A DNA stretch of 64,000 nt from Pseudactinotalea terrae (lineage in GTDB: Bacteria; Actinomycetota; Actinomycetes; Actinomycetales; Beutenbergiaceae), in the NCBI RefSeq assembly GCF_009733845.1, contig NZ_WNXZ01000002.1, positions 558,001-622,000 on the forward strand, in the 5' to 3' direction. Under the pieces are notes generated by a model. The model had not been told where the DNA came from, ran no database searches, and saw nothing but the letters and a program-made list of their open reading frames with translations. Shown in pieces: positions 3 to 33,853 of this stretch. The position numbers and the translations under genes were made by a program. Each line of letters starts with the position of its first letter. Position 1 is the first letter of the stretch.

Positions 3-2375
3 CCCGCTGACCTGGTGATCGAGATGCGCACGCAGGCCGAGGATGTGTGGGGCGAGTGGGAGCCGCTTCATGTCGAGGCCACCGAGACCCGTGACGACGA
101 GGCCGAGCTCGCCGACGCGCGTGACGGCACGCTGCCGACGGCGCTGATCGGTGCCGACGCTGTCGAGGTGAGGCTCGCGAGCGACACGACGTTGCCCGCC
201 TCTCCGAGCCTGGCGCTGGTGGACCCGGGAGAGTCCACCGCTGATGCCGCGCCGGTGACCACCGCTGCCATGACGACCACCTCGACGAACCGCCCGACGA
301 TCTACTCACGTGCCCAGTGGGGCGCCGACGAGTCCAAGATGACCTGGAACCCGTCACAGGGCCGGGTGCAGGGCATCGACATCCACCACACGGTGAACGC
401 GAACGACTACACAGCGGCACAGGTGCCTGCTCTGATGCGGTCGATCTACGCCTACCACGCCGAGGACTGGGGGCGCGGCTGGGGCGACATCGGCTACAAC
501 TTCGTGGTCGACCGGTTCGGTCGGATCTGGGAGGGGCGCTACGGGGGTGTCGACCAGGCTCCGGTCGGCGCGCACGCCACCGGGCTGAACTCGAACTTCT
601 CAGGGATCTCGCTGCTGGGCAACTTCGACACGGTTGCGGTGCCGGCGGCCGCGTTCACCTCGGTGGCCCGGCTGGCCGCGTGGAAGCTCGCGATGCACGG
701 CAACACCACGGCCTCCGGCACTGTGACCGTCGACGCCGGCACGTTCAGTCGGGTCAACGGTCACCGGGACTCGAAGCAGACCACCTGCCCGGGGCGGTAC
801 ATGTACAACCGCCTGGGCGAGATGCGCACCAGGATCAGCTCGTATATCGGGTCGTTCGCCGATCGTCAGCTCGATCGTGATCTGGACGGTGACGGATGGC
901 CGGACCTTGTCGTCACGCAGGGGACGACCGTGTCTCTGGCCTCAAGTGTCGATCGGGGCCGTTGGACGAAGCAGACCGAAGGCAGCGGTTGGTCGAGCTG
1001 GCGGACGGTCAGCGCCGGTGACTTCGACGGGAATGGGACGTCCGACCTGATGCTTGTCGGAAGCGATGGTCGGCTGTGGCTGTATCCAGGTGACTCGAAC
1101 GGCTCGTTGACCGGTGCGAGGCGGCAGGTCGGCGTCGGTTGGAACATCTTCGACTTCGTCCTCGGCACCAATGACTGGAACGGGGACGGCAATCCCGATC
1201 TTCTGGCCCGCCGCGCGGACGGTTCGCTGTGGCTGTACCGCGGAAACGGCCGCGGTGGCTTTCAGAGCGGCTCGGTGAAGGTCGGCGTCGGCTGGCACCT
1301 GATGGCGGATCTGAGTGTGTCGGATGACTTCGTCGGTGATCGCCCGGCGTTACTCGCCACCGACCGCGCCGGTAACCTCTACGCCTATCCGTCCGACGGT
1401 GCAGGGGGGTTCTCCAGCAGGATTCTCGTGAGTCGCACGTGGTCGTCGATGCAACAGACAGTCGGTGTACCCGACGCCACGGGTGACGGCAAGGGTGATC
1501 TCGCGGCTGTCGACAGCGGGGGACGTCTCTGGCTGTACCCAGGGACCGGTGCGGGTCGGCTCAACACGCTCGAGCGTGTGCCATTCGGGCCTGGATGGGG
1601 CGCGATGCGCGTGCTTCCGTTCGGGACCGTGGGGGGCGAGGATCTCGCAGTCGTCGCCGTCAATGTCTCGGCGGCGCTCCTCCGATACGGCTATACCAAT
1701 ACACGTACGGCCTACACCGACCTCGCGAGCACGGGTGTGCGCGTGAGTACAGGCGCGCGTGTCGTCGCCCCCGGCGACTGGAACGGCGATGGGCGTGCAG
1801 ACCTGATGGTCATCACCTCGGGCGGGGCGCTCATGCTCCACCCCGGCCTTGGCGGTGGGCGGTTTGCGGCGTCAGGCACCCAGATCGGGGTTGGCTGGTC
1901 GGGAATGGTGACGGTCGTCGGTGCCGGAAACTGGCGCGGCGACGGACGCCCGGGGCTCGTCGCCCACGAACGCGCCTCGGGACGACTACTCCTGTATCCG
2001 AGCGACGGCACGGGCCGATTCCTTCCAAGGGTTGTCGTTTCCACCGGTGCGACCGGCATGAACTACCTGGTCAATGCCGGTCGTTGGGACTCTGGCGGCG
2101 CGCCTGATCTGTTCATGCGAGGGGCTGATAGCGGCAGACTGTTCTTCTACAACGGGAACGGCCCGGGGTTGGCCCTTCCACCGGTCGCACAGGGCCCTGG
2201 CTGGGCAGGGATGCGCGGCGTCGTGGGACTCAACGACGTGACCGGCGACGGCGCAGCGGACCTGGTTGCTGTCACAGGGACAGGTGCTGTGCTCGTGTAC
2301 CCAGGCAACCGGGTCGGAGGCTTCCTCCCGGCCATCCCGCGCGGCGAGCTGCCTGTCTCAGTCGTCGTCTCCTGA
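3..2375 (+). CDS. Secreted PGRP/N-acetylmuramoyl-L-alanine amidase with C-terminal FG-GAP array (5' partial)
   Basis: The frame is open to the window edge, so the true start and signal peptide lie upstream. Numbering from the GTG at 15, a peptidoglycan-recognition/Amidase_2 domain spans about residues 92-280. The zinc ligands expected for a T7-lysozyme-like amidase are present: the HHT motif (124-126), H250 in GHRDS and C258 in TTCPG, plus the catalytic-type Tyr in GYNF (161). Known members cleave the MurNAc-L-Ala bond of peptidoglycan outside the cell. Residues about 288-786 are roughly ten FG-GAP/VCBS-like repeats of about 47 residues, with DxNGDGxPDL, LWLYPG and GxGW signatures. The next gene starts 1 nt after the stop, so the two are probably cotranscribed. 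The same tail recurs in three other secreted proteins of this window. Activity is inferred from motifs only. Confidence 0.9.
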   Translation, partial: PADLVIEMRTQAEDVWGEWEPLHVEATETRDDEAELADARDGTLPTALIGADAVEVRLASDTTLPASPSLALVDPGESTADAAPVTTAAMTTTSTNRPTIYSRAQWGADESKMTWNPSQGRVQGIDIHHTVNANDYTAAQVPALMRSIYAYHAEDWGRGWGDIGYNFVVDRFGRIWEGRYGGVDQAPVGAHATGLNSNFSGISLLGNFDTVAVPAAAFTSVARLAAWKLAMHGNTTASGTVTVDAGTFSRVNGHRDSKQTTCPGRYMYNRLGEMRTRISSYIGSFADRQLDRDLDGDGWPDLVVTQGTTVSLASSVDRGRWTKQTEGSGWSSWRTVSAGDFDGNGTSDLMLVGSDGRLWLYPGDSNGSLTGARRQVGVGWNIFDFVLGTNDWNGDGNPDLLARRADGSLWLYRGNGRGGFQSGSVKVGVGWHLMADLSVSDDFVGDRPALLATDRAGNLYAYPSDGAGGFSSRILVSRTWSSMQQTVGVPDATGDGKGDLAAVDSGGRLWLYPGTGAGRLNTLERVPFGPGWGAMRVLPFGTVGGEDLAVVAVNVSAALLRYGYTNTRTAYTDLASTGVRVSTGARVVAPGDWNGDGRADLMVITSGGALMLHPGLGGGRFAASGTQIGVGWSGMVTVVGAGNWRGDGRPGLVAHERASGRLLLYPSDGTGRFLPRVVVSTGATGMNYLVNAGRWDSGGAPDLFMRGADSGRLFFYNGNGPGLALPPVAQGPGWAGMRGVVGLNDVTGDGAADLVAVTGTGAVLVYPGNRVGGFLPAIPRGELPVSVVVS

Positions 2376-2376
2376 C

Positions 2377-3543
2377 ATGCGGGCCGCGGTCGTCACGCGC
2401 ATCTACGCACCGGAGGTGGCGGCGGCCGCGTTCCGCCTCGGCAAGATGGTCTCGGCTCTAGCCAGGCATGGTCAGGTCGACGTGCTGACGGTGATCGCAG
2501 CGGGCGAGCACCACCACCCGCCCGCCGCGGTACGGGTGCGGCGCTGGCCGGTCCTCCGCGACCGTTCGGGCTACGTGCGTGGCTATCTGCCATACCTGTC
2601 CTTCGATGTACCGCTGCTGCTCCGGCTGATCTTGATGAGGAAGCCGACTGTCTTCGTGGTCGAGCCTCCGCCAACCACCGGGGTAGCCGTACGGATCGTA
2701 TGTGCCGTGCGGCGGGTGCCGTACGCCTGGTACGCCGCGGACGTGTGGTCGGACGCCACGGCCTCGACCGGAGCACCCGCGATCGTCACGAAGGTCGTTC
2801 GCGCCCTCGAGTCGTGGGTGCTGAAGGGCGCTGCTGTCTCGCTGGCCGTCTCCGAGGAGGTCGCGGACCGAGTTCGCGAGCTCGGCGCACCGCACGTGGT
2901 GACTGTCGGCAACGGCATCGACACGGAGATCTTCTGTCCGCAGGGCGAACGGCTCGCTGGACCCCGAACGTTCGTGTACGCCGGGACAGCCTCGGAGTGG
3001 CAAGGCGCCGATGTCTTTGCCCGCGCGATGCCGCAGGTGCTGGCTGCGGTCCCTGACGCTCGCCTGGTCTACCTCGGGCACGGGAGTGCATGGCCGACCA
3101 TCGGCACAGTCGCCGCATCGCTTCCTCAGGGCGCCGTCACGATGCACGCCAGCGTGCCGCCCGAGCGCAGCGCAGCGTGGCTACGGGGGGCTGCGGCAGC
3201 AGTCGTGAGCATCGTGCCCGGCCAGGGGTACGACTTCGCTCTCCCGACCAAGCTCTTCGCTGCGCTCGGGACCGGCACCCCCGTCATCCACGCGGGTGTT
3301 GGCGCGGCGGCCGACCTGGTGCGCGAGCACGAGCTCGGTTGGGTGGCCGATCACGACGTCGACGCCGTCGCCGCGGCGATGATCGCGGCGCTCCGAGCAC
3401 CCGACGGCGAGCACGAGCGCAGCAGGCGCGCTGCCTGGGTGGCCGAGCACCGTTCGCTGGCGGCGGCCGCCGAGCGAGCGGCCGCCGCCGTCGTCGAGGC
3501 TGCGAGGGGTGGCAGCGCTAGGCGGCGGGGCTCGTCAGCTTGA
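2377..3543 (+). CDS. Glycosyltransferase family 4 (GT-B)
   Basis: Predicted 388-residue GT-B glycosyltransferase. The ATG at 2377 lies one base after the stop of the amidase gene, and the N-terminus MRAAVVTRIYAPEVAAAAF matches the start of the N-terminal Rossmann half (GT4-like acceptor domain). The C-terminal half carries the usual sugar-nucleotide-binding features: a YAGTASEWQG segment opening the second Rossmann fold, and a DFALPTKLFAALGTGTPVI region equivalent to the GT4 motif that precedes the donor-binding loop. It ends in an Ala/Arg-rich tail. It probably adds a sugar to the surface polymer encoded by the cluster. Donor and acceptor cannot be read from sequence. Its 3' end overlaps the convergent exporter gene by 26 nt. 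Confidence 0.85.
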   Translation: MRAAVVTRIYAPEVAAAAFRLGKMVSALARHGQVDVLTVIAAGEHHHPPAAVRVRRWPVLRDRSGYVRGYLPYLSFDVPLLLRLILMRKPTVFVVEPPPTTGVAVRIVCAVRRVPYAWYAADVWSDATASTGAPAIVTKVVRALESWVLKGAAVSLAVSEEVADRVRELGAPHVVTVGNGIDTEIFCPQGERLAGPRTFVYAGTASEWQGADVFARAMPQVLAAVPDARLVYLGHGSAWPTIGTVAASLPQGAVTMHASVPPERSAAWLRGAAAAVVSIVPGQGYDFALPTKLFAALGTGTPVIHAGVGAAADLVREHELGWVADHDVDAVAAAMIAALRAPDGEHERSRRAAWVAEHRSLAAAAERAAAAVVEAARGGSARRRGSSA

Positions 3544-4014: not shown

Positions 4015-5151
4015 TCAGGAACCCCGAAGAAGGGCTTCGACGGCGTCGTTCCAGCCGGTGACCTGCCGCTCGGCGCACAGCGTGGTCGAGGCGGCGTCGC
4101 TCGCAGCCTTCAGCTCGGCGGCTCGCTCAGGGGTGAGCGCATCGATCGCTGCAGCGAGCGCCTCAGCCGTGAAGTCGGTGGTGACGACGCCGAGCCCGTG
4201 CTCGCGGACCAGTGCCGCCATGTCGGGGCTGGGGCCGATGACAAGACCGAGGCGCGCCTGCACGAAGTCGAAGAACTTGTTCGGCAGTGCATGGCGGAAG
4301 TTGAAGGAGATCGGCGGGAGCACGTAGACGCCGAGGTCGTAGTCGTTGAGTGTCCTGACGATCGCATCGGTCGGCACCGGTTCATGGATGCGGACGCGGT
4401 CGCTGTCGGCGTACCGGTCGCGCAGCGAGGACACGTAGCCCGTTCCCTGGTCGATGAGGTACAGGTCGAGCGTGGCGCCTGAGGTCACCGAGTCCATCGC
4501 CGTCAGCATCGTCTCCAGCCGTTCCGGCACCCCGTTGCCCGCGTGCACGAGCCGGATCGGGTTCCCCACCGGCGTGGGCGCGAGATCGATCAGAGACGGT
4601 GCGTTCATCACCAGCCGGGTGTCGATCCCGAACTCGCGCCAGTATTCCGAGGCCAGACCGGGGGAGACGGTCGTCACCGAGTCGGCACGTCTGACCCAGG
4701 TCCGCACCAGCCAGCGGAAATAGGGCGCGACCACGAGTCGCCACGGCAGGCTCTCCTCGTTCTGCCGAGAGGCGTACTCGTGCAGGTCCGCGTGCACGCC
4801 GCGCCGGGGCTTCAGCTGGATCGCGAGCGGCACCGTGTCGACGTCGTTGGCGAGGACCACGTCGTGCTCGCCGACCGGGAGTCGCCCGCGCAGCCACCGC
4901 TGCACCGGCATCGTGTCGTAGGTGCGCTGGTAGGCCCGCGCCAGCAGCAGCCGCCGGTCCTTGTGCCAGTAGACGATCTCGTCGGGTATCCGGAGGTGAC
5001 TGGCTACCCCCTCCGGTGCCTCTCCGTACCCGACGGTGCTCACCTCGTAGCGATCCTTCAGCAGCCGGATCTGCCGCAGCACGCGTGCGTCGCGGTACAG
5101 CGGTGAGTAGCTGATGATGAGGACGCGGGGCCGCGCGCCGGCCGGCGTCAC
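4015..5151 (-). CDS. Glycosyltransferase family 4 (GT-B)
   Basis: A 378-residue GT-B glycosyltransferase. The GTG start overlaps the stop of the upstream gene in a GTGA, so the two are translationally coupled. The N-terminus (RVLIISYSPLYRDARVLRQI) has the D-RV-R/K pattern shared by several glycosyltransferases in this cluster. HADLHEYA (mid protein) is equivalent to the YDAHEL segment of its paralogues. In the C-terminal half, FNFRHALPNKFFDFVQARLGL is the GT4 donor-side loop. It is the last gene of the operon that begins with the ABC exporter at 8295. It probably builds the surface glycan. Sugar specificity is unknown. Confidence 0.85.
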   Translation of the reverse strand: MTPAGARPRVLIISYSPLYRDARVLRQIRLLKDRYEVSTVGYGEAPEGVASHLRIPDEIVYWHKDRRLLLARAYQRTYDTMPVQRWLRGRLPVGEHDVVLANDVDTVPLAIQLKPRRGVHADLHEYASRQNEESLPWRLVVAPYFRWLVRTWVRRADSVTTVSPGLASEYWREFGIDTRLVMNAPSLIDLAPTPVGNPIRLVHAGNGVPERLETMLTAMDSVTSGATLDLYLIDQGTGYVSSLRDRYADSDRVRIHEPVPTDAIVRTLNDYDLGVYVLPPISFNFRHALPNKFFDFVQARLGLVIGPSPDMAALVREHGLGVVTTDFTAEALAAAIDALTPERAAELKAASDAASTTLCAERQVTGWNDAVEALLRGS

Positions 5152-6497
5152 CGCGAGGCGCCCAGCACATCGGCGTACAACGCCACCAGGGCATCTGCCT
5201 CCTGGCGCCAGTCGAGCTCGTCGGCTGCGGCGACCGAGGCGGCACGGTACCGGGCTTCGTCAGCGATGACGCGTTCGATCGCCGCCGCCAGTTGGTCGGG
5301 TCGATCGGCGCCGAACACCTCGCCGACGCCATAGCCCTGGACGATCGCCGCGGTGTCCGGCAGGTCGGCCGCGACGATCGGCAGCCCGGCATGGATGGAC
5401 TCGAACAGCTTGTTCGGCAGCGAGTAGCGGTACGACAAGCAGATCGGTCGCACGTAGACGACCGCCACATCGGCATCGGCCAAGGTCATCGGGACCTCAG
5501 GTCCCGGGACGGGTCCGACGAGGTGCACGCGGGCACCGAGGCCGAGGTCGCGCGCCTGCCCGAGCAGCCGCGTCACGTAGCTGGGGTCCCCGTAGCCCAA
5601 CATCACCAGGTGGGTGTCAGCATCCAGCTCGGTGAGTGCGTGCAGCATCTCCTCAAGACCCCGCCCGGTGGTGACGCCACCTGCGTAGCCGACGAGCCGC
5701 GCGTGGCTGGGCAGGCGCGCGAGCTCACGAAGGCGGCCCTGCTGGGGGTCGGGGACCGCCCCGCGCCGGTGCGGGATGTTCCGCACCAGCGTGGGCGCCG
5801 TGCGCAGCCGGAAACGGCGTCGCATCCACGTGACGATCGACGGTGACACGGTCACCACCCCGGCGCTCGCGCGAACCCCGAGCCACTCGATCACCGACTC
5901 GACGAGCGGCGCCAGCAGTCGGTCGGGTCGCACGTTGCGTCGCGTCCACAGTTCGTGCGCGTCGTAGACGATCCGGCAGCCGACCGCCCGCTTGAGCAAC
6001 ATCGCCGGCAGCAGGGTGTTGCCGTCGTTCGCGTGCACGACGTCGGGTCGCATGCGACGCAGCTTGCGCATCACGCCTCCCCAGAACCACATCAGCCGGA
6101 CGACCTGGTACAGGCGCATCCACAGGTCGCCGGCGACGGATCCGACCGATGCTCGGGCCGACGTCGGGGGTGTCGACGGCGGAGCATCCTCGATCTCCGG
6201 GCTCGGCCTGGCGCCATCAGGGTCCTGGCCACGCAGCCGGCGCACCCCCCGGGCGAGCCAGGGGAGCAGCTCGACGAGGTCGAAGTCGCGGGCTCGGTGG
6301 ATCGAGAGGCCGTCTCCCACCAGATCGTCACCGGCGGGGTAGCCGGGTCGAGCACTGCCGACGATCAGCACGTCCGCGCCCGCGTCACGGAGCGAGGCTG
6401 CCGTCTTGAGGACCCGGTTGTCGTTCGAGACCTGGTTGTACACGAGCAGCGCCACCCGCGGCGCGCGCCCCTGCACGCGTGGCAGGCGCTCAGGCAT
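5148..6497 (-). CDS. Glycosyltransferase family 4 (GT-B)
   Basis: A 449-residue GT-B glycosyltransferase. I chose the ATG at 6497 because it has a GGAGG ribosome-binding site 5 nt upstream and overlaps the stop of the ABC exporter gene by only 8 nt (ATGCCTGA). An in-frame ATG at 6521 lacks that signal. The N-terminal Rossmann half shows NQVSNDNRVLKTAASL and IVYDAHELW; the C-terminal half shows GYAGGVTTGRGLEEML and the YRYSLPNKLFESIHAGLPIV donor loop typical of GT4. An insert rich in charged and Pro residues (about 80-120) separates the first strands. It is closely similar in layout to the genes at 11183 and 28202, which suggests duplication within the locus. Confidence 0.87.
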   Translation of the reverse strand: MPERLPRVQGRAPRVALLVYNQVSNDNRVLKTAASLRDAGADVLIVGSARPGYPAGDDLVGDGLSIHRARDFDLVELLPWLARGVRRLRGQDPDGARPSPEIEDAPPSTPPTSARASVGSVAGDLWMRLYQVVRLMWFWGGVMRKLRRMRPDVVHANDGNTLLPAMLLKRAVGCRIVYDAHELWTRRNVRPDRLLAPLVESVIEWLGVRASAGVVTVSPSIVTWMRRRFRLRTAPTLVRNIPHRRGAVPDPQQGRLRELARLPSHARLVGYAGGVTTGRGLEEMLHALTELDADTHLVMLGYGDPSYVTRLLGQARDLGLGARVHLVGPVPGPEVPMTLADADVAVVYVRPICLSYRYSLPNKLFESIHAGLPIVAADLPDTAAIVQGYGVGEVFGADRPDQLAAAIERVIADEARYRAASVAAADELDWRQEADALVALYADVLGASR

Positions 6498-8295
6498 CGG
6501 ATCCTCCAGTAAGGCCGGCAAGCATCGCTTGCTCGGCGAAATCCGGCACGCCGGCCACGACCTCGGCGAAGGTGCCGCTCGCCACGAGGTGCCCGTCGCG
6601 CATGAAGCACACCTGCTCGCTGTGCCGGATCGTGGCCAGGCGGTGGGCCACGACGATCACGCTGATCTCGCCGGCCAGCTCGCGGATCGCAGCGGTGACC
6701 GCGGCCTCGGTGCTGGTGTCGAGCGCCGAGGTCGCCTCGTCCATCACCAGCACCAGCGGGTCGGTGTAGAGCGCGCGCGCCATGCCGAGCCGTTGGCGTT
6801 GACCACCCGAGAGCGCCAGGCCACGGTCACCGACCGGTGCATGGATCCCCTCGGGCCGTGCTTCGACGACGTCGAGAAGCTGCGCACGTGCCAGGGCACG
6901 ACGCACGCGGTCCTCATCGATGTTCTCGTCGGACCATGTCAGCGCCACGTTGTGAGCCACGGAGGCGTCGAACAACGACACGTCCTGCGGGACGTAGCCC
7001 ACCCGCGAGCGCCAGTCGATGAGGACCCGGCCCAAGGGCTGGTCACCGATCCAGATCGTGCCGGCGTCGGGCTCGAGCAAGCCCAGCATGAGATCCACGA
7101 GCGTCGACTTCCCCGAGCCGGAGGCGCCGACGAGCGCGAGCGTCTGCCCGAAAGGCAGCTCGAGACTGACGTCGTTCACCGCCGGAGTCGCGCCGCCGGG
7201 GTAGGAGAACGTCACGTGCTCGAGGCGCAAGGTGCGACTGCCCTCGGCCAGCTTCTCGGTCGAGGTGGCGGCCGGCTCCGGGTACTCGCGGCTGCGGTCG
7301 ATCTCGGCCAGCACCTGATCGGCATAGGGCATGTTCGCGCCGGTCTGCGCAAGGATCGTCTGGAATCGGGTGAGTGAGGGAACGATCCGGAACCCGGCGA
7401 CCCCGAAGAGGGCGACGGCCGCGAGCGCGCCCGCGACGCCGTCGTCCGGGTGGGAGAGGTAGCCGATCGCGGCCCCGATCCCGAGGCCGCCGATCAGTGC
7501 CGCTTCGAGGACGTAGCGGGGGATCGCGCCGAGAAAGGTCTGGTCGGCGCGGGCACGGGAGGAACGCGACCGTACGCTCAGCACGAGGTCGGCCAGCTCG
7601 TCGGAGCGGCCTCGGAGCGTGATCTCCTTGAGTGCGTGGATCATCTCGGCCATCAGCCGTACAGCGCGGGCTGAGTACGTGCGGTTGTCCTGGCCGGCTC
7701 GCACGGCGCGGCGGAGCACCCACAGGTAGAGCCCGGCCGCGACGATCGCGAAGTAGATCACGGTGGCGCTCGCGAGCAGCGGCTCGGCGACGATCAGCAC
7801 ACCCAGCACCGCGACGAACGTGACCACCTCGCCCGCGAGCTGACAGAACGGGATCAGCACGCCGGAGATCGTGGCGCCGACGCCGACGTCGGTGGAACGC
7901 ACGATGTCGGTCGCGTTGCGCGACAGGCGCTCGGTCCACGGCGCTCGGAACGTGCCGGCGAGCAGCTGGGCGCCCAGCACCTGCTCGAACGCGGCGAACC
8001 GCTTCGTCGCCCAGCGCTGCAGCAGGATCGCCAGCACGCTCTTGGCGATGACGAGACCGCCGACGGCGAGCAGCACGTTGCGGAACTGCGTCGGCTCGCT
8101 GATCTCGCCGAGCACCGGCAGCGCTGCGCTACCGCCTGTCAGCATCGGCGCGAGGATGAGCGCGAGCAGCCCGATCGCCGCCACATCGAGGATCGCGAGC
8201 GCACTCTGGAGCACGGCGAAGGTGATGACGAAGCGGCTCGTACCTTCCGGCAGCGTCGCGAGCAAGCGGCGCACGATCTGCCACAGCGCGAGCAA
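6490..8295 (-). CDS. ABC exporter, fused membrane and ATPase domains (PglK/MsbA-like)
   Basis: A 601-residue half-transporter. Residues about 20-320 hold six membrane segments of a type IV ABC exporter and about 355-595 the nucleotide-binding domain. That domain carries Walker A GASGSGKST (390-398), signature LSGGQ (495-499), Walker B VLVMDE ending at 520, and switch His 551. The start is TTG at 8295, supported by AGGAG six bases upstream; no ATG fits. It is first in an operon with two glycosyltransferases that overlap end to start. Homologues of this layout in glycan loci flip lipid-linked oligosaccharides (PglK) or export lipids. The context favours a glycolipid substrate, but drug or lipid export cannot be excluded. 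Confidence 0.85.
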   Translation of the reverse strand: MLALWQIVRRLLATLPEGTSRFVITFAVLQSALAILDVAAIGLLALILAPMLTGGSAALPVLGEISEPTQFRNVLLAVGGLVIAKSVLAILLQRWATKRFAAFEQVLGAQLLAGTFRAPWTERLSRNATDIVRSTDVGVGATISGVLIPFCQLAGEVVTFVAVLGVLIVAEPLLASATVIYFAIVAAGLYLWVLRRAVRAGQDNRTYSARAVRLMAEMIHALKEITLRGRSDELADLVLSVRSRSSRARADQTFLGAIPRYVLEAALIGGLGIGAAIGYLSHPDDGVAGALAAVALFGVAGFRIVPSLTRFQTILAQTGANMPYADQVLAEIDRSREYPEPAATSTEKLAEGSRTLRLEHVTFSYPGGATPAVNDVSLELPFGQTLALVGASGSGKSTLVDLMLGLLEPDAGTIWIGDQPLGRVLIDWRSRVGYVPQDVSLFDASVAHNVALTWSDENIDEDRVRRALARAQLLDVVEARPEGIHAPVGDRGLALSGGQRQRLGMARALYTDPLVLVMDEATSALDTSTEAAVTAAIRELAGEISVIVVAHRLATIRHSEQVCFMRDGHLVASGTFAEVVAGVPDFAEQAMLAGLTGGSDA

Positions 8296-10610: not shown

Positions 10611-10650
10611 CCTCTGCCTCCCTAACGCGGCGATCACCTCCGACCGGTCC

Positions 10651-16653: not shown

Positions 16654-16660
16654 CCCCACT

Positions 16661-23989: not shown

Positions 23990-24595
23990 ATGAGTATCAG
24001 GATCGCTGAGTCTGCAGACGTCGATGCTCGCGCCACGATCGGCGATGGAACTTCCGTATGGCACCTGGCTCAAGTTCGTGAAGATGCCGTGCTCGGCGAG
24101 AGTTGTGTGATTGGTCGCGGCGCCTACGTGGGCAGCGGTGTGACCATGGGCGCCAACTGCAAGATCCAGAACTACGCGCTGGTCTACGAGCCGGCGGTTC
24201 TGGAGGATGGTGTCTTCATCGGGCCGGCAGTGGTGCTGACCAACGACACCTTCCCTCGCGCGATCAACCCGGATGGCTCGCTCAAGAGCGGTCACGACTG
24301 GGAGGCGGTCGGCGTCACCCTGCGGCGCGGCGCGTCGGTGGGTGCCCGTGCCGTGTGCGTGGCACCTGTCACGATCGGGCGTTTCGCCACCGTCGCCGCG
24401 GGTGCCGTGGTCACGAAGGACGTGCCAGACTTCGCCCTCGTTGCGGGCGTTCCGGCGCGTCGCCTCAAGTGGGTCGGTCGTGCGGGCCTTCCTCTAGTGT
24501 CAGTCGGTGACGGGCGTTGGCAGTGTCCACGCACGTCGGAGATCTATATCGAGAGCGGCGAGACCTTGACGCCGCAGGACGAGGAGCAAGCGTGA
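23990..24595 (+). CDS. wbpD: UDP-3-amino-sugar N-acetyltransferase, left-handed beta-helix (WbpD/WlbB type)
   Basis: A 201-residue hexapeptide-repeat acyltransferase. The ATG at 23990 has GGGAGGG five bases upstream; the open frame upstream of it is not coding. Imperfect hexapeptide turns run from about 12 to 160 (IGDGTSVWHLAQVREDAVLG, IGRGAYVGSGVTMGANCKIQ, VTIGRFATVAAGAVVTKDVP). The loop ALVYEPAVLEDGVFIGPAVV followed by TNDTFPRAINPDG is characteristic of WbpD/WlbB. That enzyme acetylates the 3-amino group of UDP-2-acetamido-3-amino-2,3-dideoxy-glucuronate using acetyl-CoA. It is first of four coupled genes that complete this pathway, which strengthens the specific call. Confidence 0.88.
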   Translation: MSIRIAESADVDARATIGDGTSVWHLAQVREDAVLGESCVIGRGAYVGSGVTMGANCKIQNYALVYEPAVLEDGVFIGPAVVLTNDTFPRAINPDGSLKSGHDWEAVGVTLRRGASVGARAVCVAPVTIGRFATVAAGAVVTKDVPDFALVAGVPARRLKWVGRAGLPLVSVGDGRWQCPRTSEIYIESGETLTPQDEEQA

Positions 24596-25689: not shown

Positions 25690-26681
25690 TGGCCAACCTC
25701 CGCGCCGGCCTCATCGGCTTGGGCATGATGGGTCGCCACCACGCGCGCGTGCTGCGCTCCCTCGAGGGCGTCGACCTCGTCGCCGTCGCTGACCCCGGCG
25801 GGGACCCGCACGGGGTGGCGGGCGGCCTTCCGGTGCTGCCGGATGTCCACGCCCTGATCGAGGCAGGCATCGACTACGCGATGGTCGCGGCCCCCACGCA
25901 GTTCCACACCGAGGCGGGGCTCGCGCTGGCGGAGGCCGGCGTGCACGCGATGGTGGAGAAGCCGCTCGCCAAGGACACCGAGGGTGCGCGCGCGCTTGCC
26001 GATGCGTTCGAGGCCAAGGGCCTGGTCGGCGCCGTCGGGCACATCGAGCGTTACAACCCCGCGCTGCAGTCGCTTCGCGAGCGACTCGACGGCGGCGAGC
26101 TGGGCGAGGTCTACCAGATCGCCACGCGCCGGCAGGGTCCGTTCCCGGCCCGGATCGCCGACGTGGGCGTCGTCAAGGACCTGGCGACGCACGACATCGA
26201 TCTGACGGCGTGGGTCACGCAGCAGCAGTTCACCGCGGTGTCGGCCCGCACCGCCTACAAGAGCGGACGCGAGCACGAGGACCTGGTCGCGATCACCGGC
26301 ATGCTGTCTGGCGGCACGGTCAGCAACCACCTCGTCAACTGGCTCTCGCCCATGAAGGAGCGACTCACCGTCGTCACCGGTGAGAAGGGCACGTTCATCG
26401 CTGACACGCTGCTGGCCGACCTTACGTTCTACGCCAACGGCCTGATCAAGACCGTCTGGGAGGACGTCGCGCAGTTCCGTGGCGTCTCCGAGGGGGACGT
26501 GGTCCGCTACGCCATCTCCAAGCGCGAGCCCCTGCTCGTCGAGCACGAGTCGTTCCGCGATGCGGTCCTCGGCAAGGAAAGTGACATCGTGACCATGCGG
26601 CAGGGCTACGCGACGGTGGCTGTGGCCGAGGCTGTGCTCGCGTCGGCCGCTGACGGAACTACTGTTCCCATCAAGGTCTGA
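25689..26681 (+). CDS. wbpB: UDP-GlcNAcA 3-dehydrogenase, Gfo/Idh/MocA family (WbpB/WlbA type)
   Basis: A 330-residue NAD-dependent oxidoreductase. The N-terminal Rossmann fold opens with GLIGLGMMGRHHARVL. EKP (90-92) and the C-terminal-domain KDLATHDIDL (about 163-172, with the family's His/Asp) are the catalytic hallmarks of Gfo/Idh/MocA proteins. ATG at 25689 overlaps the aminotransferase stop by one base. WbpB/WlbA oxidises C3 of UDP-N-acetylglucosaminuronate and works in a coupled cycle with the aminotransferase, consistent with their fused translation here. Specificity for this sugar rests on the operon rather than on residues I can verify. Confidence 0.88.
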   Translation: MANLRAGLIGLGMMGRHHARVLRSLEGVDLVAVADPGGDPHGVAGGLPVLPDVHALIEAGIDYAMVAAPTQFHTEAGLALAEAGVHAMVEKPLAKDTEGARALADAFEAKGLVGAVGHIERYNPALQSLRERLDGGELGEVYQIATRRQGPFPARIADVGVVKDLATHDIDLTAWVTQQQFTAVSARTAYKSGREHEDLVAITGMLSGGTVSNHLVNWLSPMKERLTVVTGEKGTFIADTLLADLTFYANGLIKTVWEDVAQFRGVSEGDVVRYAISKREPLLVEHESFRDAVLGKESDIVTMRQGYATVAVAEAVLASAADGTTVPIKV

Positions 26682-26770: not shown

Positions 26771-28087
26771 GTGAAGATCGCTGTCGTGGCGCTGGGCAAG
26801 ATCGGGCTGCCCCTCGCAGTTCAGTTCGCATCCAAGGGTCACCAGGTCGTCGGTGTCGACGTCAACCAGAAGCTCGTGGAGGTGGTCAACGCGGGCCGAG
26901 AGCCGTTCCCGGGTGAGGCGCACCTCCAGGAGAAGATCGCCGAGACGGTGGCCGCGGGCACCCTCCGCGCAACGACCGACTACGGCGACGCCATCCCTGG
27001 CGCCGACGCGATCGTCATCGTGGTACCGCTCTTCGTCAACGACGAGACATGGGAACCGGATTTCGGTTGGATGGACAGCGCGACGCGATCGTTTGCGGAG
27101 CACCTCACGCCGGGCACGCTGATCTCCTACGAGACGACGCTCCCGGTCGGTACCACGCGTACCCGCTGGAAGCCGCTCATCGAGGAGATCTCCGGCCTCG
27201 CGGAAGGCACCGACTTCCACCTGGTGTTCTCCCCCGAGCGCGTGCTCACTGGTCGCGTTTTTGCCGACCTGAGGAAGTACCCGAAGCTGGTCGGGGGCCT
27301 CAGCGATGCCGGGGCTCTGCTCGCGACCAAGTTCTACGAGGCCGTGCTCGACTTCGACGAGCGGCCCGACCTCGAGCGGGGCAACGGGGTCTGGGACCTC
27401 GGAAGCGCCGAGGCCGCCGAGATGGCGAAGCTGGCCGAGACCACTTATCGTGACGTCAACATCGGGCTGGCGAACCAGTTCGGGAAGTTCGCCGCGAGCA
27501 AGGGCATCGACGTCTTCCAGGTCATCGATGCGTCCAACTCGCAGCCCTACAGCCACATCCACCGTCCAGGTGTCGCTGTGGGCGGACACTGCATCCCGGT
27601 GTATCCGCGGCTCTACCTCTGGACCGACCCGGACGCGACGGTCGTGCGCGCGGCACGCGAGGCGAACATGGCGATGCCGGGCTACACCGTCGGCCTGCTT
27701 GAGGGCGCCCTGGGGGGCCTCGCAGGTCGCCGAATCGCGGTGCTGGGCGCTTCCTACCGGGGTCGCGTGAAGGAGACGGCGTTCTCAGGAGTCTTCCCGA
27801 TCGTGGCTACGCTGCGTGACGCTGGTGCCGAGGTCGTTGTCCACGACCCGATGTACACAGCAGAAGAGCTTGGCGCCTACGGATTCGACGCGTACGAGCT
27901 GGGCACGCCGATCGATGGGGCAATCATCCAGGCTGACCACCCGGAGTACTCCGGGCTCGGTGCTGCGATGCTGCCGGGTGTGCAGGTTCTCGTCGACGGC
28001 CGCAACATGACGACGGACGAGGGCTGGGAAGGTGTGAAGCGGATCGTCGTTGGTCAGGGTGAGGGCCGAGCGCTACCCCGGCTTTGA
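26771..28087 (+). CDS. wbpA: UDP-N-acetylglucosamine 6-dehydrogenase (WbpA type, UDP-glucose/GDP-mannose dehydrogenase superfamily)
   Basis: A 438-residue NAD-dependent four-electron dehydrogenase. The GTG at 26771 has AAGGAAGGA seven bases upstream. Features are the N-terminal dinucleotide fold (VVALGKIGLPLAVQFASKGH), conserved K220 in AEMAKLAETTYRDVN, and the catalytic cysteine C274 in VGGHCIPVYP. A C-terminal UDP-binding third domain contains VLGASYRGRVKETAFSG, matching the family's GxxYKxxxxDxR-like region but with VKETAFSG at the sugar-nucleotide side, as in WbpA/WecC-like enzymes. It oxidises UDP-GlcNAc to UDP-GlcNAcA, the first step of the pathway completed by the three preceding genes. 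An 89-nt gap separates it from them, still probably one operon. Confidence 0.88.
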   Translation: MKIAVVALGKIGLPLAVQFASKGHQVVGVDVNQKLVEVVNAGREPFPGEAHLQEKIAETVAAGTLRATTDYGDAIPGADAIVIVVPLFVNDETWEPDFGWMDSATRSFAEHLTPGTLISYETTLPVGTTRTRWKPLIEEISGLAEGTDFHLVFSPERVLTGRVFADLRKYPKLVGGLSDAGALLATKFYEAVLDFDERPDLERGNGVWDLGSAEAAEMAKLAETTYRDVNIGLANQFGKFAASKGIDVFQVIDASNSQPYSHIHRPGVAVGGHCIPVYPRLYLWTDPDATVVRAAREANMAMPGYTVGLLEGALGGLAGRRIAVLGASYRGRVKETAFSGVFPIVATLRDAGAEVVVHDPMYTAEELGAYGFDAYELGTPIDGAIIQADHPEYSGLGAAMLPGVQVLVDGRNMTTDEGWEGVKRIVVGQGEGRALPRL

Positions 28088-28201
28088 GGTAGCGGGGGCG
28101 CCTGCGCCGCGCACGGACCAAGTCGGCTCGGATCGTGCAGGAGAGTGTTCGCCGTCCAGTAGCCTGACGCTCTCGCAGTGAAGCACACCTGGGGAATAAT
28201 T

Positions 28202-29686
28202 GTGGACGACGTGGTTCCTGAACCACCTGAAGATCGAGCCGTGAGCCCCCTCAAGGTCGTCATGGTCGTTCACACTGACATCGTCGCCGACGCGCGGGTC
28301 CGCAAGTCCGCCCAGACGGTCCACAAGCTCGGCTACGACGTGACCCTCATCCATGGACTTCCGCGAGGAGCGACCGAGCGGGTCGAGGGGTGCCTCGACG
28401 GTATCCCTACCATCGGACTTCCGGTCCCCTTCCCGACGACCGCGCTCAAGGCGGAGAGGGAACGCGCTCGCCGGGCGCGCCGCCGAGGATTCCCTGGGTA
28501 TCGTTCCAAGGCCGAAGCCGAGTGGGTGCGGCAGCAGAACGTCATCGCCGGCCTGCGCGCCTCGCGGCACTCACGGCCAGTGCGCGCGATACTCCGTCTG
28601 TACCGCTTCCTGACTGCCTTGCGTCTGCATTACCACGATGGCCGGGAGGCTCGGCTCGAGCGACGCTGGGCCGCGATCGACGACAAGGACCGCCCAGTCC
28701 GACGGCTGGACTGGAACTACGAAGTGCCGGCCTTTTCTGACATCAGCATTGCATTGACTCGGGAGATATGGCGCCACGATCCCACGATCATCCACGCACA
28801 CGATGCCGCAGTTCTGGAGGCCGCTGTCAACGCGACCAACCACCTCCGTGCTCAGGGCGGCCGTCGACGCCTGATCTACGACGCGCACGAGTTCGTGGCC
28901 GGTGCCGTCCGGCCGAATGAGCGGCTGCGACGTGCGTGGCAGCAGATGGAGTCGCATTACATCAAGAGCGTGGACGCGGTGATCACCGTCAGTGAGCCCA
29001 TTGCCGAGGCGCTCCATCGCAACTATCACCTGGCTGTCCGGCCGACCGTCGTCCTGAACGCGCCAGTCGTCACCAATCGCGTCGAGGCGACGTCCGACGT
29101 CCGCCGTGACTGCCAGCTCGGGCCGGAGACACCGTTGATCGTCTATTCCGGTGTGACGGCGCCCAAGCGCGGAGTCGCCACCGTGGTCGACGCTCTCGCG
29201 CAGCTCCCAGGCGTACACCTGGCTCTCATCTGTGTTCCGAGCCCTACAGCTCCCTTCGCCCCGGAGCTCGCGCGTCGTGGCGCAGAGATGGGTGTAGCTG
29301 ATCGGATGCACCTGCTGGAGCCCGTGGAGCCCGAAGCCGTGCTCGACTACCTGCGGACAGCTGACCTCGGCGTCCACCCCATGATCGGTGGGATAAGAAA
29401 TCACGAGATGGCTCTGCCCAACAAGTTGTTCGACTATGTCTTTGCCGGGCTGCCCATTGTCACGAGCGACCTGGCAGAGATGGGAGATTTCGTGCGCCGC
29501 ACCGGCGTCGGAGAGGTCTTTCCCCACGGAGATGTGGATGCCTGCGCGAAGGCTCTAGCCATGGCGTTGACGGCGCTGCCGCAGTATCGGGCACGCATCG
29601 CGCAAGGCAACCTGCAGGAGACGTACTCGTGGGAGAGCCAAGAGGCGAAGCTGGCGTCGTTGTATAGGGTTCTTTCAGAGGGGTGA
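28202..29686 (+). CDS. Glycosyltransferase family 4 (GT-B)
   Basis: A 494-residue GT-B glycosyltransferase. I prefer the GTG at 28202 because CTGGGGA lies seven bases upstream and a TAGCCT -10-like box at 28161-28166 would give a leader of about 33 nt. A GTG at 28178 is possible but has no ribosome-binding site. The N-terminal half shows VVHTDIVADARVRKSAQTVH and LIYDAHEFVAGA; the C-terminal half shows VYSGVTAPKRGVATVVDALA and the HEMALPNKLFDYVFAGLPIV donor loop. A long basic insert (about 85-150) distinguishes it from its paralogues at 5148 and 11183. It follows the nucleotide-sugar operon, so a diacetamido-glucuronate donor is a reasonable but unproven guess. Confidence 0.86.
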   Translation: MDDVVPEPPEDRAVSPLKVVMVVHTDIVADARVRKSAQTVHKLGYDVTLIHGLPRGATERVEGCLDGIPTIGLPVPFPTTALKAERERARRARRRGFPGYRSKAEAEWVRQQNVIAGLRASRHSRPVRAILRLYRFLTALRLHYHDGREARLERRWAAIDDKDRPVRRLDWNYEVPAFSDISIALTREIWRHDPTIIHAHDAAVLEAAVNATNHLRAQGGRRRLIYDAHEFVAGAVRPNERLRRAWQQMESHYIKSVDAVITVSEPIAEALHRNYHLAVRPTVVLNAPVVTNRVEATSDVRRDCQLGPETPLIVYSGVTAPKRGVATVVDALAQLPGVHLALICVPSPTAPFAPELARRGAEMGVADRMHLLEPVEPEAVLDYLRTADLGVHPMIGGIRNHEMALPNKLFDYVFAGLPIVTSDLAEMGDFVRRTGVGEVFPHGDVDACAKALAMALTALPQYRARIAQGNLQETYSWESQEAKLASLYRVLSEG

Positions 29687-29794: not shown

Positions 29795-31075
29795 ATGGTT
29801 GACGACCCGGATGCCGACCATCCGTCCGATGCCGACCATCGGTCGAATCGTGTAGAGCGTCGACGATCTTCGGTTCTTGCCCTCGCGGCCGTAGCGCTGG
29901 TCACCTTGGGTCTCAGCGTCGCGCCAGCGGCTCCCGCGCATGCGGTCACCGAGAGCACGGCCACTGCCCGGATCTACGCCGATACCAATACGCACCGCAG
30001 TAGCAACGGGCGTACGCTCCTGGTGCGCAACGCTCAGCTCGACGCCGTCGCCGCCTCGTGGTCGGATGTGCAATGCAGTCGCGGTGAGATGGGGCACAAC
30101 CCGCGTCTCGCCCAGCAGATCCCACCAGGCTGGTCGGCAGCAGCGGAGAATGTCGCTCGCGGCTACTCCTATGACCGCGTGGTCGCGGCCTGGATCGGTT
30201 CTCCCGGGCACAACGCCAACCTGCTGGGCAACTACACCCATGTGGGCATCGGGTATTGCGAATTGAACGGCGACCGCTACTACACGCAGGTGTTTGCTCG
30301 CTATCCGGGCTCGTTGCCCGGCGATGGCACTGCCAGCGGCTCGTCCGTGCTAGCGATCTCTCCGGACGGCGTGCTCTACCGGTATCCAGGAAACGGTGCG
30401 GGTCTCTTCGGTACTCGGCAGCAGATCGGCGTCGGTTGGGGTGGGATGAGCCTGGTGACAGGCGTCGGTGACATCACGGGTGACGGAAACGGTGACGTCG
30501 TGGCGCGCGACAGCATGGGGCGCCTCGTTCTCTACGCAGGCACGGCGACGGGTGGGTTGGTGCGCGGCGCCGTGATGGGGCCCGGCTGGGGCCAGATGAA
30601 CCTCCTGCTCGGCGTCGGCGACTTCACCGGAGACGGACGGGCCGACCTCCTGGCGAGGGACACGGTCGGCCGTCTGTGGCTGTACGCCGGCCGGGGTAGT
30701 GGTCAGCTTGCAGGAGGAGTGCAGATCGGCGTGGGTTGGGGGGTGATGACGGCTGTGGCAGCGCCGGGAGATGTCAACTCGGACGGTCGGCCGGACGTCG
30801 TCGCACGGGACGCCGGAGGCCGATTGTGGCTGTATCCGGGTCGCGGCAATGGCAGGTTCCAGGGTTCCCAGCAGGTGGGCCACGGTTGGCAGATCTTCGA
30901 TGCCATCGTGGCTCCTGGCGATTTTTCCGGCGACGGCCTGCCAGACCTGCTCGCGCGCACAGCGAGCGGCGCGCTGCTTCTCTATACAAGCACGAGTTCG
31001 GGCAGCTGGCGGTCAGGTCCGCAGGTCGGGAGCGGCTGGACCGGTTTTCGCGTCGTCGGGCCCGGCGCTGACTGA
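29795..31075 (+). CDS. Secreted CAP/SCP (PR-1 like) domain protein with C-terminal FG-GAP array
   Basis: A 426-residue exported protein. A 25-residue acidic then basic N-region precedes the hydrophobic signal core, with cleavage likely after AHA at about residue 50. Residues about 57-170 form a CAP domain: the cavity histidines in GHNP and PGHNANLLG, the AAENVARGY segment and the terminal YYTQVFARY strand are all visible. CAP domains in bacteria are extracellular and often associated with spore or wall layers; their activity is poorly defined. Residues about 185-426 are five FG-GAP-like repeats with DxTGDGxxD, RLWLYxGxG and GxGW motifs. These are nearly the same as the last repeats of the beta-helix protein at 32183-33853, implying recent duplication. 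Confidence 0.9.
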   Translation: MVDDPDADHPSDADHRSNRVERRRSSVLALAAVALVTLGLSVAPAAPAHAVTESTATARIYADTNTHRSSNGRTLLVRNAQLDAVAASWSDVQCSRGEMGHNPRLAQQIPPGWSAAAENVARGYSYDRVVAAWIGSPGHNANLLGNYTHVGIGYCELNGDRYYTQVFARYPGSLPGDGTASGSSVLAISPDGVLYRYPGNGAGLFGTRQQIGVGWGGMSLVTGVGDITGDGNGDVVARDSMGRLVLYAGTATGGLVRGAVMGPGWGQMNLLLGVGDFTGDGRADLLARDTVGRLWLYAGRGSGQLAGGVQIGVGWGVMTAVAAPGDVNSDGRPDVVARDAGGRLWLYPGRGNGRFQGSQQVGHGWQIFDAIVAPGDFSGDGLPDLLARTASGALLLYTSTSSGSWRSGPQVGSGWTGFRVVGPGAD

Positions 31076-31791: not shown

Positions 31792-32182
31792 GGTGCCGAA
31801 CGTAGTTGTCCAGCGTGAGAACGAGGTGAGAACAGGAAGGAAACGGCGTGTCGTCGATCTCAGATGCGGTGATTGCGCCCGGTACCGGGCCGCCGATGTC
31901 GTGACCTGGAGAGCCCGTCGTGAGCGACGGCATGCGGCTGCTGTTATCGTTTCGTTGCCTCACGGCGCGGCCCGAACACATCTGACAGATGCTGGGAGAG
32001 CATGTGCTGTGACGGTCGGAGGTGCCGACTCCCATGAGTCGGCAGCTCTGGGTCGGGGGGCGGCTCGCGCCGCACGACCGCAAGGCCTGGGCGAGTCCGC
32101 TTGTTCTGGCTTGGGCAGTCGGTGAGTAGCCGGATTGAAGGCCAACGTTGGCACATCCCACCAAGGTCCAAGGAGATCAGAC
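31792..32182. other. 391-nt intergenic region with several strong inverted repeats
   Basis: No plausible gene is seen. On the plus strand it holds the perfect palindrome CCCGGTACCGGG (31878-31889) and CCGTCG-TGAG-CGACGG (31915-31930). It also holds GCCGACTC-CCAT-GAGTCGGC (32024-32043) and a nested hairpin GGTCG...GCGGC-TCGC-GCCGC...CGACC (32051-32079). The left end carries the leaderless -10 of the membrane-protein gene. The rest is probably the promoter and a structured leader of the beta-helix gene. Confidence 0.5.
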
Positions 32183-33853
32183 GTGCTCCACTCTGCCCAC
32201 GATCAGCGACGCGAGGGCGAGCCTCAGCTGCGCTCGCGTTCCCGCGCCCGACACACGATCTCCATCCTCGTCGCGACGATCGCGCTCCTGCTGTCTGCAG
32301 CGATCGTCGCGCCCGAACCAGCGAGCGCTGCGCCCATGACTCCGCCCGGGTTCCCCAACGCGAGCAACACCGGCGTACCAGCAGGCGTGACGCTACGCAC
32401 GTCGGGCAGTCTGGTGATCACCCGCGACGGGACGGTCGTGAGCGGTCTCCGCGTCAACGGCACGATCACGGTCAGGGCCGACAACGTGACCATCCGCAAC
32501 ACTTTGGTCCAGGGCGGTGGGAACGGTTACCCCATCCGGATCGCCGGTGATGCGGCCAACACCTTGATCGAACACGTCGAGATCGACAACGAGCGCAGCA
32601 CCGGCATCGGGATCCTCGTCGGCGGCGGCCCCGGTACCGTCATCCGCTACGCCGACATCCACTCCGCGGAGGACGGGATCCGCATCGAGGCCGACAACGT
32701 CAGGGTCGAACGGTCGTACATCCACGACCTGACGCGTCAGTCCGGAGGTCATCACGACTGCATCCAGATCCGCTCGGGCGACAACGTCATGCTGCGAGAC
32801 AACAACCTGCAGGCCTTCGTCGCATCGACCGATGATCCGATGAACGCTGCCCTCCAGATCGGATCCCTCCTGGGCAGAGACCGCATCTCCAATCTGCTCG
32901 TGAGCGGCAACCTGATGAACGGCGGCAACTTCACCATCAACGGTGGGGGTCGCAACGAGGTCGACAGCGCCCGGTATGCCGGCAACATGTTCGGCCGTGA
33001 CTTCCGGTATGGCGTTGCCGGGAATCTCGACAACAGCGTCTGGACATCCACCAACGTCTGGTACGACAGCAAGAGACCGGCAGGACCTCGTGCCGACACC
33101 GGGCCCGGTGCCGATGACCCGGGAGTGCTTGCTATCAGGCCGAACGCCAATCTCGTGAGGTACCCCGGCACCGGGACGGGCGGCTTCGGCCCATCCCGGG
33201 TGGTCGGGTGGGGGTGGTCATCGATGAGTCTGGTCACCGGCGTCGGGTATCTGACCAACGACACCTACCGTGATGTAGTCGCGCGTGACACGAGTGGTCG
33301 CCTGCGGATCTACACCGGCACGGCCTCCGGCGGGTACACGGGGCCGATCGTGCTCGGACCAGGGTGGGGGCGGATAGATCTCTTGGTCGGAGCCGGCGAC
33401 ATGTCGGGTGACGGTCGACCCGATCTCCTCGCCCGTGACGATGACGGTCGACTGTGGCTCTACGCGGGAACCTCCAATGGGCGGATCGCCGGTGGCGTGC
33501 AGATCGGTCACGGCTGGTCCGGCATGACCGCGATCCTCGGGACCGGTGACGTCACGTCGGACGGGCGCCCGGACATCGTCGCGCGAGACAGTCAGGGGAG
33601 GCTCTGGTTGTACCCCGGGCGCGGTGGTGGCAGCCTCGGTGCTCGCCAGCAGGTTGGTCATGGGTGGCAGGTCTTCAGCAGCATCGTTGCGCCAGGGGAC
33701 TTCTCCGGTGATGGTCGACCGGACCTCTTGGCGAGGACCAGCAGCGGGGATCTCATGCTCTACACGAGCACGGCATCCGGTAGCTGGCGCTCGGGCGGCC
33801 AGGTCGGGCACGGCTGGAACGGGCTCCGGATACTCGGGGCTGGCGCGGCGTAG
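32183..33853 (+). CDS. Secreted right-handed parallel beta-helix protein with C-terminal FG-GAP array
   Basis: A 556-residue exported protein. The GTG at 32183 has AAGGAG seven bases upstream and is followed by a basic N-region and hydrophobic core (TISILVATIALLLSAA), with cleavage near PASA at about residue 50. Residues about 66-300 show short repeating coils with NxVTIRNT, NTLIEHVEIDN, NVRVERSYIHD and NVMLRDNNLQ, the pattern of pectate-lyase-like right-handed beta-helices that bind or cleave polysaccharide. A GGHHDCIQIRSG segment could be catalytic. Residues about 325-556 are five FG-GAP-like repeats closely related to those of the CAP protein. A role on the local surface glycan is an inference from fold and location. 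Confidence 0.88.
   Translation: MLHSAHDQRREGEPQLRSRSRARHTISILVATIALLLSAAIVAPEPASAAPMTPPGFPNASNTGVPAGVTLRTSGSLVITRDGTVVSGLRVNGTITVRADNVTIRNTLVQGGGNGYPIRIAGDAANTLIEHVEIDNERSTGIGILVGGGPGTVIRYADIHSAEDGIRIEADNVRVERSYIHDLTRQSGGHHDCIQIRSGDNVMLRDNNLQAFVASTDDPMNAALQIGSLLGRDRISNLLVSGNLMNGGNFTINGGGRNEVDSARYAGNMFGRDFRYGVAGNLDNSVWTSTNVWYDSKRPAGPRADTGPGADDPGVLAIRPNANLVRYPGTGTGGFGPSRVVGWGWSSMSLVTGVGYLTNDTYRDVVARDTSGRLRIYTGTASGGYTGPIVLGPGWGRIDLLVGAGDMSGDGRPDLLARDDDGRLWLYAGTSNGRIAGGVQIGHGWSGMTAILGTGDVTSDGRPDIVARDSQGRLWLYPGRGGGSLGARQQVGHGWQVFSSIVAPGDFSGDGRPDLLARTSSGDLMLYTSTASGSWRSGGQVGHGWNGLRILGAGAA

Follow-up and report, generated by a model that had tools for sequence, protein, structure and literature searches.

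Secreted proteins with a common tail at a glycan locus

The window analysed in this work (the whole stretch G000:C8:558001-622000, 64,000 nucleotides, of the 4.76 Mb genome of Pseudactinotalea terrae) includes in its left 34 kb a glycan locus, probably for the synthesis of a sugar polymer of the cell surface: many GT4 glycosyltransferase genes, two types of exporter and nucleotide-sugar genes (coordinates in Table 1). Four secreted proteins encoded among these genes have unrelated modules, namely a peptidoglycan recognition protein (PGRP)/Amidase_2 domain, a SpoIID domain, a CAP domain and a probable beta-helix, followed by C-terminal repeats of one family. The Pfam model FG-GAP_3 (PF13517) matched all four at 74.6-120.3 bits vs. 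a cut-off of 26.9, so the shared tail is not a chance resemblance. Together with a hidden Markov model (HMM) of one repeat (“blade”), built from these four proteins and a fifth tail protein of the same genome, this bore out an earlier note, made from the sequence alone, which had described four unrelated secreted modules with one tail.

The PGRP open reading frame (ORF) is truncated by the window edge: an ATG lies 793 bases upstream (L004:19108) and the open frame comprises 1056 codons. The beta-helix proposed in the earlier note is only probable. The region had no Pfam domain and a weak match to NosD (E 5.5e-5), and its single-sequence AlphaFold model was poor (mean model confidence, pLDDT, 57.9) and better in the first half only. 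The tails of the CAP and beta-helix proteins were 65% identical and no other fetched locus had a match to the first domain of the latter, suggesting a local duplication.

Repeat unit, fold and relationship to lectins

The period of the repeats, first given as about 47 residues, was 50 when measured between the GxGW motifs of the CAP protein (residues 212, 262, 312, 362 and 412). Five to about ten copies per protein had been counted, and the blade HMM resolved these into units of five. The CAP, beta-helix and SpoIID tails, like that of an M23-like protein from elsewhere in the genome, begin with part of a blade, continue with four complete ones and end with a closing strand, the two ends together making up the fifth blade; the PGRP tail gave ten matches, of which two were very weak. 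A profile of six units (A2) recovered its own units at 312-358 bits (by construction). The arrays in the fetched loci (46, one gene included twice) spanned 217-258 residues in 37 cases, 474-482 in three and 728 in one; these 41 correspond to about 5, 10 or 15 blades, and five arrays did not fit (97, 162, 174, 185 and 387 residues). A seven-bladed propeller was ruled out by these lengths. Judged from sequence and modelling, the arrays are closed five-bladed VCBS/FG-GAP propellers, two in tandem on the PGRP protein, and not the open strings of repeats first supposed.

The closed propeller with four-stranded blades was seen in a model of the CAP tail (AlphaFold pLDDT 90.8, predicted TM score, pTM, 0.89, 21 strands of at least three residues). 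Foldseek searches with this model ranked the lectins PVL and PHL first, followed by PLL-family lectins among non-lectin propellers. PVL and PLL have seven blades and tachylectin-2 has five. The tail shares its fold with PVL, PHL/PLL, BP39L and tachylectin-2, and with BP39L its sequence too; PVL and PHL/PLL chains measure 338-401 residues vs. 246 for the window unit. When the A2 profile was compared with solved structures, chain 8w20_C (E 3e-30) and the BP39L lectin (3.7e-8) both came before integrins, and Pfam Tachylectin matched three of 48 tail proteins. The tail is best described as a lectin-like propeller common to wall-acting modules; its sequence relatives and model suggest that it may bind carbohydrate.

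The entry 8W20 was deposited with the Streptomyces umbrella-toxin paper, the available text of which describes UmbA as a trypsin-like domain with mostly propeller-fold lectin domains (PMC11062931); we infer that chain C is UmbA1. Five blades are given for twelve UmbA propeller families and UmbA5, and six for the propellers of UmbA4 and of S. griseus UmbA. UmbA also differs from the window proteins by its trypsin-like domain and by acting against other species. The ligand of the UmbA4 propeller is a polymer that resembles teichuronic acid and contains ManNAc3NAcA (accessible part of PMC13274773), a sugar which the window locus may make. This kinship raises the possibility, which we consider very unlikely, that the set attacks other bacteria, with the propeller directing secreted lysins to the wall polymer of a competitor as UmbA does in umbrella toxins. 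The closest solved sequence relative does come from an umbrella-toxin particle, and the S. griseus UmbA gene adjoins its teichuronic acid cluster (same part of PMC13274773), but the window set lies beside polymer, exporter and LCP genes of the producer itself, the core pair of PGRP and SpoIID proteins resembles Bacillus LytC/LytB, and the four proteins had no toxin domain and no trypsin domain in Pfam searches (no search was made for UmbB and UmbC). Given the missing trypsin domain, the four are not classed as UmbA lectins. Umbrella-toxin lectins may share ancestry with wall-remodelling tails.

Distribution of the tail in the genome, the family and the order

Seven tail proteins are encoded in the genome: the four among the glycan genes, as the earlier note had placed them, and three elsewhere (two with M23 and SH3-like domains and one with a VanY-like C-terminus, all named by eye). 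In the last of these (L012:1402-2817, + strand) the propeller is N-terminal, which shows that the module can also stand elsewhere than at the end of a protein.

Across the order, the tail was detected at E 1e-20 in 17 of 59 genomes. The 48 tail proteins tallied with Pfam, including the three off-locus proteins of the window genome, all matched FG-GAP_3 (PF13517) at E 1e-5, and their passengers included SpoIID (6), Amidase_2 (5), M23 (4), CAP (4), VanY (2), GH25 (1) and Amidase_3 (1). Glycosyltransferases and other markers were sought by BLAST with the window proteins, a search which misses distant ones. A window-like glycosyltransferase lay near the tail in 6 of 42 neighbourhoods, hand-picked among the matches listed and not all those existing (5 of 41 without the one gene counted twice, L044 and L046), vs. 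none of 40 control stretches, which were placed at round coordinates and not at random. Three of the six positive neighbourhoods were those of SpoIID genes (L043; L044/L046, the same gene), and a fourth, L047, lay at the opposite end of locus L046. A profile search of contigs with a two-sequence alignment found only 2 loci.

Restriction of the tail to the locus was ruled out by the three of seven proteins elsewhere in the genome, the spread over 17 of 59 genomes and the 36 of 42 neighbourhoods without a window-like glycosyltransferase. The earlier note would have been contradicted by a tail widespread in genomes lacking such clusters, and in part it was. The tail is thus a module of wall enzymes in general, which occurs at such loci without being confined to them; of the proposal that it reads the locus polymer, a lectin-like propeller on wall modules stood, and specificity for the cluster did not.

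Within the family of the window, 5 of 24 genomes had an ortholog (at least 58% identity) of the GT4 gene at 19692-20996, and all five carried the tail on both the SpoIID and the PGRP protein. Since the tail, on whatever protein, was found in 7 of the 24, the chance that all five fall within these seven, computed by hand and uncorrected for kinship, is 21/42504 (about 0.0005). Two genomes (G066 and G068) of the same genus as G013, another member of the family, had linked SpoIID and PGRP genes, both with another repeat (type B, see below), and no window-like glycosyltransferase, Wzm or LCP marker was found in the stretches fetched from them. A further genome, of the same genus as the window (G069; L132-L133), kept the flanking LCP, DUF6541, GT2 and several GT4 genes. 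Its Wzm/Wzt genes were only distantly similar to those of the window, its 31 kb contig gave no match to the acetyltransferase, the aminotransferase or the 3-dehydrogenase, its PGRP protein carried an Ig-like tail (named by eye) and its SpoIID protein was tail-less. With the outer glycan genes kept and the middle and the PGRP tail changed, this looks like a switch of polymer type.

These distributions bear on another explanation, which we regard as unlikely: the propeller binds walls generally, through peptidoglycan or a common sugar such as N-acetylglucosamine (GlcNAc), and its clustering reflects the clustering of wall genes together with local duplication. The M23-like and VanY-like tail proteins encoded far away from the locus, the wide and patchy spread in the order, the low number of neighbourhoods with a window-like glycosyltransferase, the 27 of 46 loci with a PGRP/SpoIID pair but none of the markers sought (see below), the 65% identity of the CAP and beta-helix tails, and the crystallisation of several solved propeller relatives with simple sugars are all in line with it. 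A general binder, however, gives no reason why partners should share a module kind while the kind varies among genomes, nor does it account for the presence of the tail on both partners in all five family genomes that have the GT4 ortholog.

Kinds of tail on the PGRP and SpoIID partners

Of 248 genomes, 109 had SpoIID and 143 the window type of PGRP. Pairs were hand-picked among the matches listed and so are not all existing pairs: 47 loci with both domains (32 of them with tails of at least 40 residues on both) and six further genomes (three with both tails), of which G067 was judged from match coordinates alone. The comparison covered C-terminal tails. The kind of tail was identical on both partners in 33 of the 35 genomes with C-terminal tails on both; when labels were shuffled 20,000 times, 8.6 genomes matched on average and never more than 20. 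Collapsed to 11 family-by-kind combinations, 9 matched (shuffle mean 2.1; none of 20,000 shuffles reached 9), and under looser clustering, with types A and B merged, 31 of 32 matched. This agreement argues for a common ligand of PGRP and SpoIID, although kinship may explain part of it.

Six kinds were distinguished: A (the window propeller), B, LGFP (PF08310), CWB2 (PF04122), DUF4214 and C (an unnamed repeat). Types A and B were assigned by HMM, LGFP, CWB2 and DUF4214 by Pfam in one genome each, and the others by cluster; three LGFP and two CWB2 genomes were additionally confirmed by separate searches. Type B is FG-GAP-like, with repeats of about 45 residues and a GDWDGNGTDT motif on both partners (L127:8938-11127, + strand; L128:16506-18521, - strand), and had no Pfam match at E 1e-4.

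Type C was seen in G018 and G035, with repeats of about 45 residues and a WSxGW-like motif on both partners (L162:7605-9731 and 8783-11812, + strand) and no Pfam match at E 1e-4 in G018. DUF4214 was present on both partners of G051 (L165:6516-8759 and 8702-10660, + strand), a hint that this domain has a wall-binding role.

Matching was also observed between genes lying far apart on the contig: 2.7 Mb in G221, 225 kb in G137 and 249 kb in G163; in the last two, an HMM verified type A. No A or B repeats were seen in the SpoIID proteins scored as lacking a tail. Two pairs carried CWB2, and CWB2 gave no match in the window genome or in the seven A-type relatives searched. That matching simply follows from one tail kind per genome was ruled out by the CWB2-rich genomes G007, G048, G014 and G096 (55, 27, 29 and 29 repeat matches, respectively), the pairs of which carry B (G007) or LGFP (the other three). 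Homogenisation of tails within a genome was also ruled out, the tail's own partner often not being its best match.

Whether partners change together was examined on trees of the catalytic domains, which were quick searches with several long branches. By parsimony, at least 7 changes of kind are needed on the SpoIID tree and 8 on the PGRP tree. Type B was spread over three catalytic lineages of SpoIID, CWB2 over two, and the SpoIID domains of G066 and G068, both type B, grouped with LGFP-tailed ones. Matched modules could alternatively be a by-product of history, PGRP and SpoIID having been inherited or transferred as blocks without selection for a common ligand. The fetched pairs are mostly linked and many are adjacent, catalytic domains diverge together with tails in G066/G068, and the independent-pairs test is underpowered, as such a history would allow; but the match in the three distant pairs, the several catalytic lineages bearing type B and CWB2, and the 7 and 8 changes needed speak against it. 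We judge it rather unlikely, if somewhat less so than general wall binding. A rule across the order, by which partners carry the same exchangeable wall-reading module and both change when the polymer changes, is put forward tentatively, at a little short of even chances.

Proposed role and comparison with known systems

The explanation we favour, with a fair margin of doubt, is that the propeller is a non-covalent wall-glycopolymer-binding module which holds a wall-remodelling set on the producer's own wall, its likely ligand being the polymer of the locus, anionic and probably containing a diacetamido-uronic acid. The core pair would be the PGRP amidase, with two propellers, and its SpoIID/LytB-family partner, with one. 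The amidase would strip stem peptides, and SpoIID would either enhance the amidase or cut the denuded glycan; acting on the same strands, both would have to read the same wall component. The CAP and beta-helix proteins would employ the same propeller module.

The best comparison is with the lytRABC genes of Bacillus subtilis, of which the set may be an actinobacterial counterpart with a lectin-like propeller as the module. TagU is an LCP protein, and LytC carries the same wall-binding module as LytB; on the latter point, the title of a 1992 paper speaks of a modifier homologous to the major autolysin. In both systems an amidase and a SpoIID/LytB-family partner are encoded together, the partner has wall-binding domains (predicted in the window), an LCP gene shares one region with teichuronic or teichoic genes (in the window, candidates for a teichuronic-type cluster), and one module is found on both partners (in the window, a presumed wall binder). 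A table in PMC8753576 places lytC, lytB and tagU amid the tua and tag genes. LytB is the enhancer of LytC, and removal of the three wall-binding domains of LytB greatly lowers the display of LytB at the surface (excerpt of PMC7176660); LytB is listed as not hydrolysing peptidoglycan while SpoIID is listed as a lytic transglycosylase (excerpt of PMC10653849). The systems differ in that CWB2 rings and Amidase_3 are used in Bacillus, whereas in the window the propeller is borne by PGRP/Amidase_2 and also by CAP and beta-helix proteins. With no CWB2 in the genome and Amidase_2 in place of Amidase_3, the set is a variant of the lytRABC plan and not a member of it.

A second likeness is with the Cwp proteins of Clostridioides difficile, in which many different modules are joined to one polymer-binding module, CWB2, which binds the wall polymer PSII made by the neighbouring locus (AP; available text of PMC5842191). 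The fold is different, the proteins are mainly S-layer or surface proteins, and the parts of the source at hand mention no SpoIID/amidase couple. The earlier note did not recognise its combination as described. The open-access literature searched had no paper joining FG-GAP tails to SpoIID, or to an amidase and a lectin, and none joining SpoIID to LGFP, CWB2 or VCBS repeats, or to PGRP, Actinobacteria and cell wall binding; the Bacillus and Clostridioides systems are nevertheless precedents with another module.

Several results weigh against the explanation favoured here. SpoIID had no C-terminal tail in 18 of 53 genomes (15 of the 47 loci and three genomes of family f9), and two pairs were mismatched (G023, PGRP type A and SpoIID type B; G017, PGRP in the LGFP cluster and SpoIID outside it). 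Tails of one locus were mostly no closer to each other than to those of other genomes, so any fit lies at the level of module kind. At the 46 pair loci other than that of the window, the insensitive marker search was positive at 19, with a window-like glycosyltransferase at 11, Wzm at 11 and LCP at 5, and therefore a polymer locus beside the pair was shown for a minority only; the 27 loci with no such marker in the fetched stretch include G066 and G068. The independent-pairs test had at most three pairs on supported branches and so cannot reach significance or prove concerted change, although it never pointed the opposite way. To these are added the three tail proteins away from the locus, the 36 neighbourhoods of the order without a window-like glycosyltransferase, two family genomes with the tail but no GT4 ortholog (G059 and G068), and, among the 48 tail proteins, three subtilases, two with SLH and others with no peptidoglycan-acting domain. 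As for the fold, Foldseek placed non-lectin propellers high (KICSTOR at ranks 4 and 5, also Ski8), no umbrella-toxin chain was among the best 50 matches listed, and the superpositions were loose (TM scores 0.48-0.57 in the PVL and PHL/PLL rows, root-mean-square deviation about 7-10) because these lectins are larger propellers.

Four of the 18 genomes with no C-terminal SpoIID tail (G049, G110, G162 and G175, family f15; L177, L175, L178 and L176) encoded PGRP and SpoIID as parts of a single ORF (1237-1451 residues), a hint that the two domains act together.

In our judgement it is an open question in Actinobacteria what keeps wall hydrolases on the right wall and how this is adjusted when the surface polymer is swapped. 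If the matching holds as a rule, the kind of tail would be a genomic read-out of the polymer class, the unnamed modules (type B, type C, DUF4214) could be recognised as readers of polymers by their position on the pair, and ready wall-targeting domains would be at hand.

Other genes of the locus and the candidate polymer

The left 34 kb of the window had a GC (guanine + cytosine) content of 0.63-0.71 per 2 kb vs. 0.69-0.76 in the remainder. Directly upstream of the window were three LCP (LytR_cpsA_psr) genes, DUF6541, one acyltransferase and one GT2 gene; LCP genes at the locus are in line with a polymer that such enzymes would attach to the wall.

Table 1. Features of the window (positions are those of the whole stretch).
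Feature	Position	Strand	Evidence or remark
Secreted PGRP/Amidase_2 protein, two tandem five-blade propeller units	3..2375	+	Pfam Amidase_2 and FG-GAP_3
PGRP propeller unit 1	870..1628	+	
PGRP propeller unit 2	1614..2372	+	More degenerate
GT4 glycosyltransferase	2266..3543	+	Pfam
GT4-like ORF	4015-5151		Read by eye; no Pfam match at 1e-5
GT4 glycosyltransferase	5148..6521	-	Pfam
One-piece ABC exporter, MsbA/PglK-like	6490..8295	-	
SpoIID/LytB-domain protein, one five-blade propeller	8634..10901	-	Pfam SpoIID and FG-GAP_3; likely start near 10610
Seven ORFs with GT4-type glycosyltransferase domains	11159..22204		Two barely above Pfam cut-off
Wzt/TagH-like ATPase of polymer ABC exporter	22093..22944	-	
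Wzm-like permease	22922..23788	-	
Sugar N-acetyltransferase, WbpD-like step	23735..24595	+	Best solved relative 3mqg
Sugar aminotransferase	24517..25689	+	Solved relatives include WbpE
UDP-GlcNAc 3-dehydrogenase-like oxidoreductase, WbpB-like step	25689..26681	+	
UDP-sugar 6-dehydrogenase, WbpA-like step	26771..28087	+	
Glycosyltransferase-like protein	28178..29686	+	Weak NCBIfam match
Secreted CAP protein, one five-blade propeller	29795..31075	+	Pfam CAP and FG-GAP_3
Secreted probable beta-helix protein, one five-blade propeller	32135..33853	+	Pfam FG-GAP_3 and FG-GAP
GT2 glycosyltransferase	33934..34716	-	
Membrane acyltransferase with SGNH domain, OafA/SucT-like	34745..36853	-	

Four consecutive nucleotide-sugar genes of the locus are candidates for four of the five enzyme steps of ManNAc3NAcA synthesis named in the available text of PMC13274773: an acetyltransferase, an aminotransferase, a 3-dehydrogenase and a 6-dehydrogenase. 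None of the four was above the cut-off of a named equivalog. The nearest solved structure to the acetyltransferase was 3mqg (E 8e-38), the aminotransferase matched WbpE at 2e-61 with other solved structures scoring better, and the 3-dehydrogenase-like oxidoreductase had no PDB match at 1e-25. For the remaining step, a 2-epimerase, two Epimerase_2 genes were found in the genome, both away from the glycan locus.

At positions 40573-40667 of the window, ARAGORN called an odd tRNA with a four-base anticodon, which lies inside long ORFs and is probably false.

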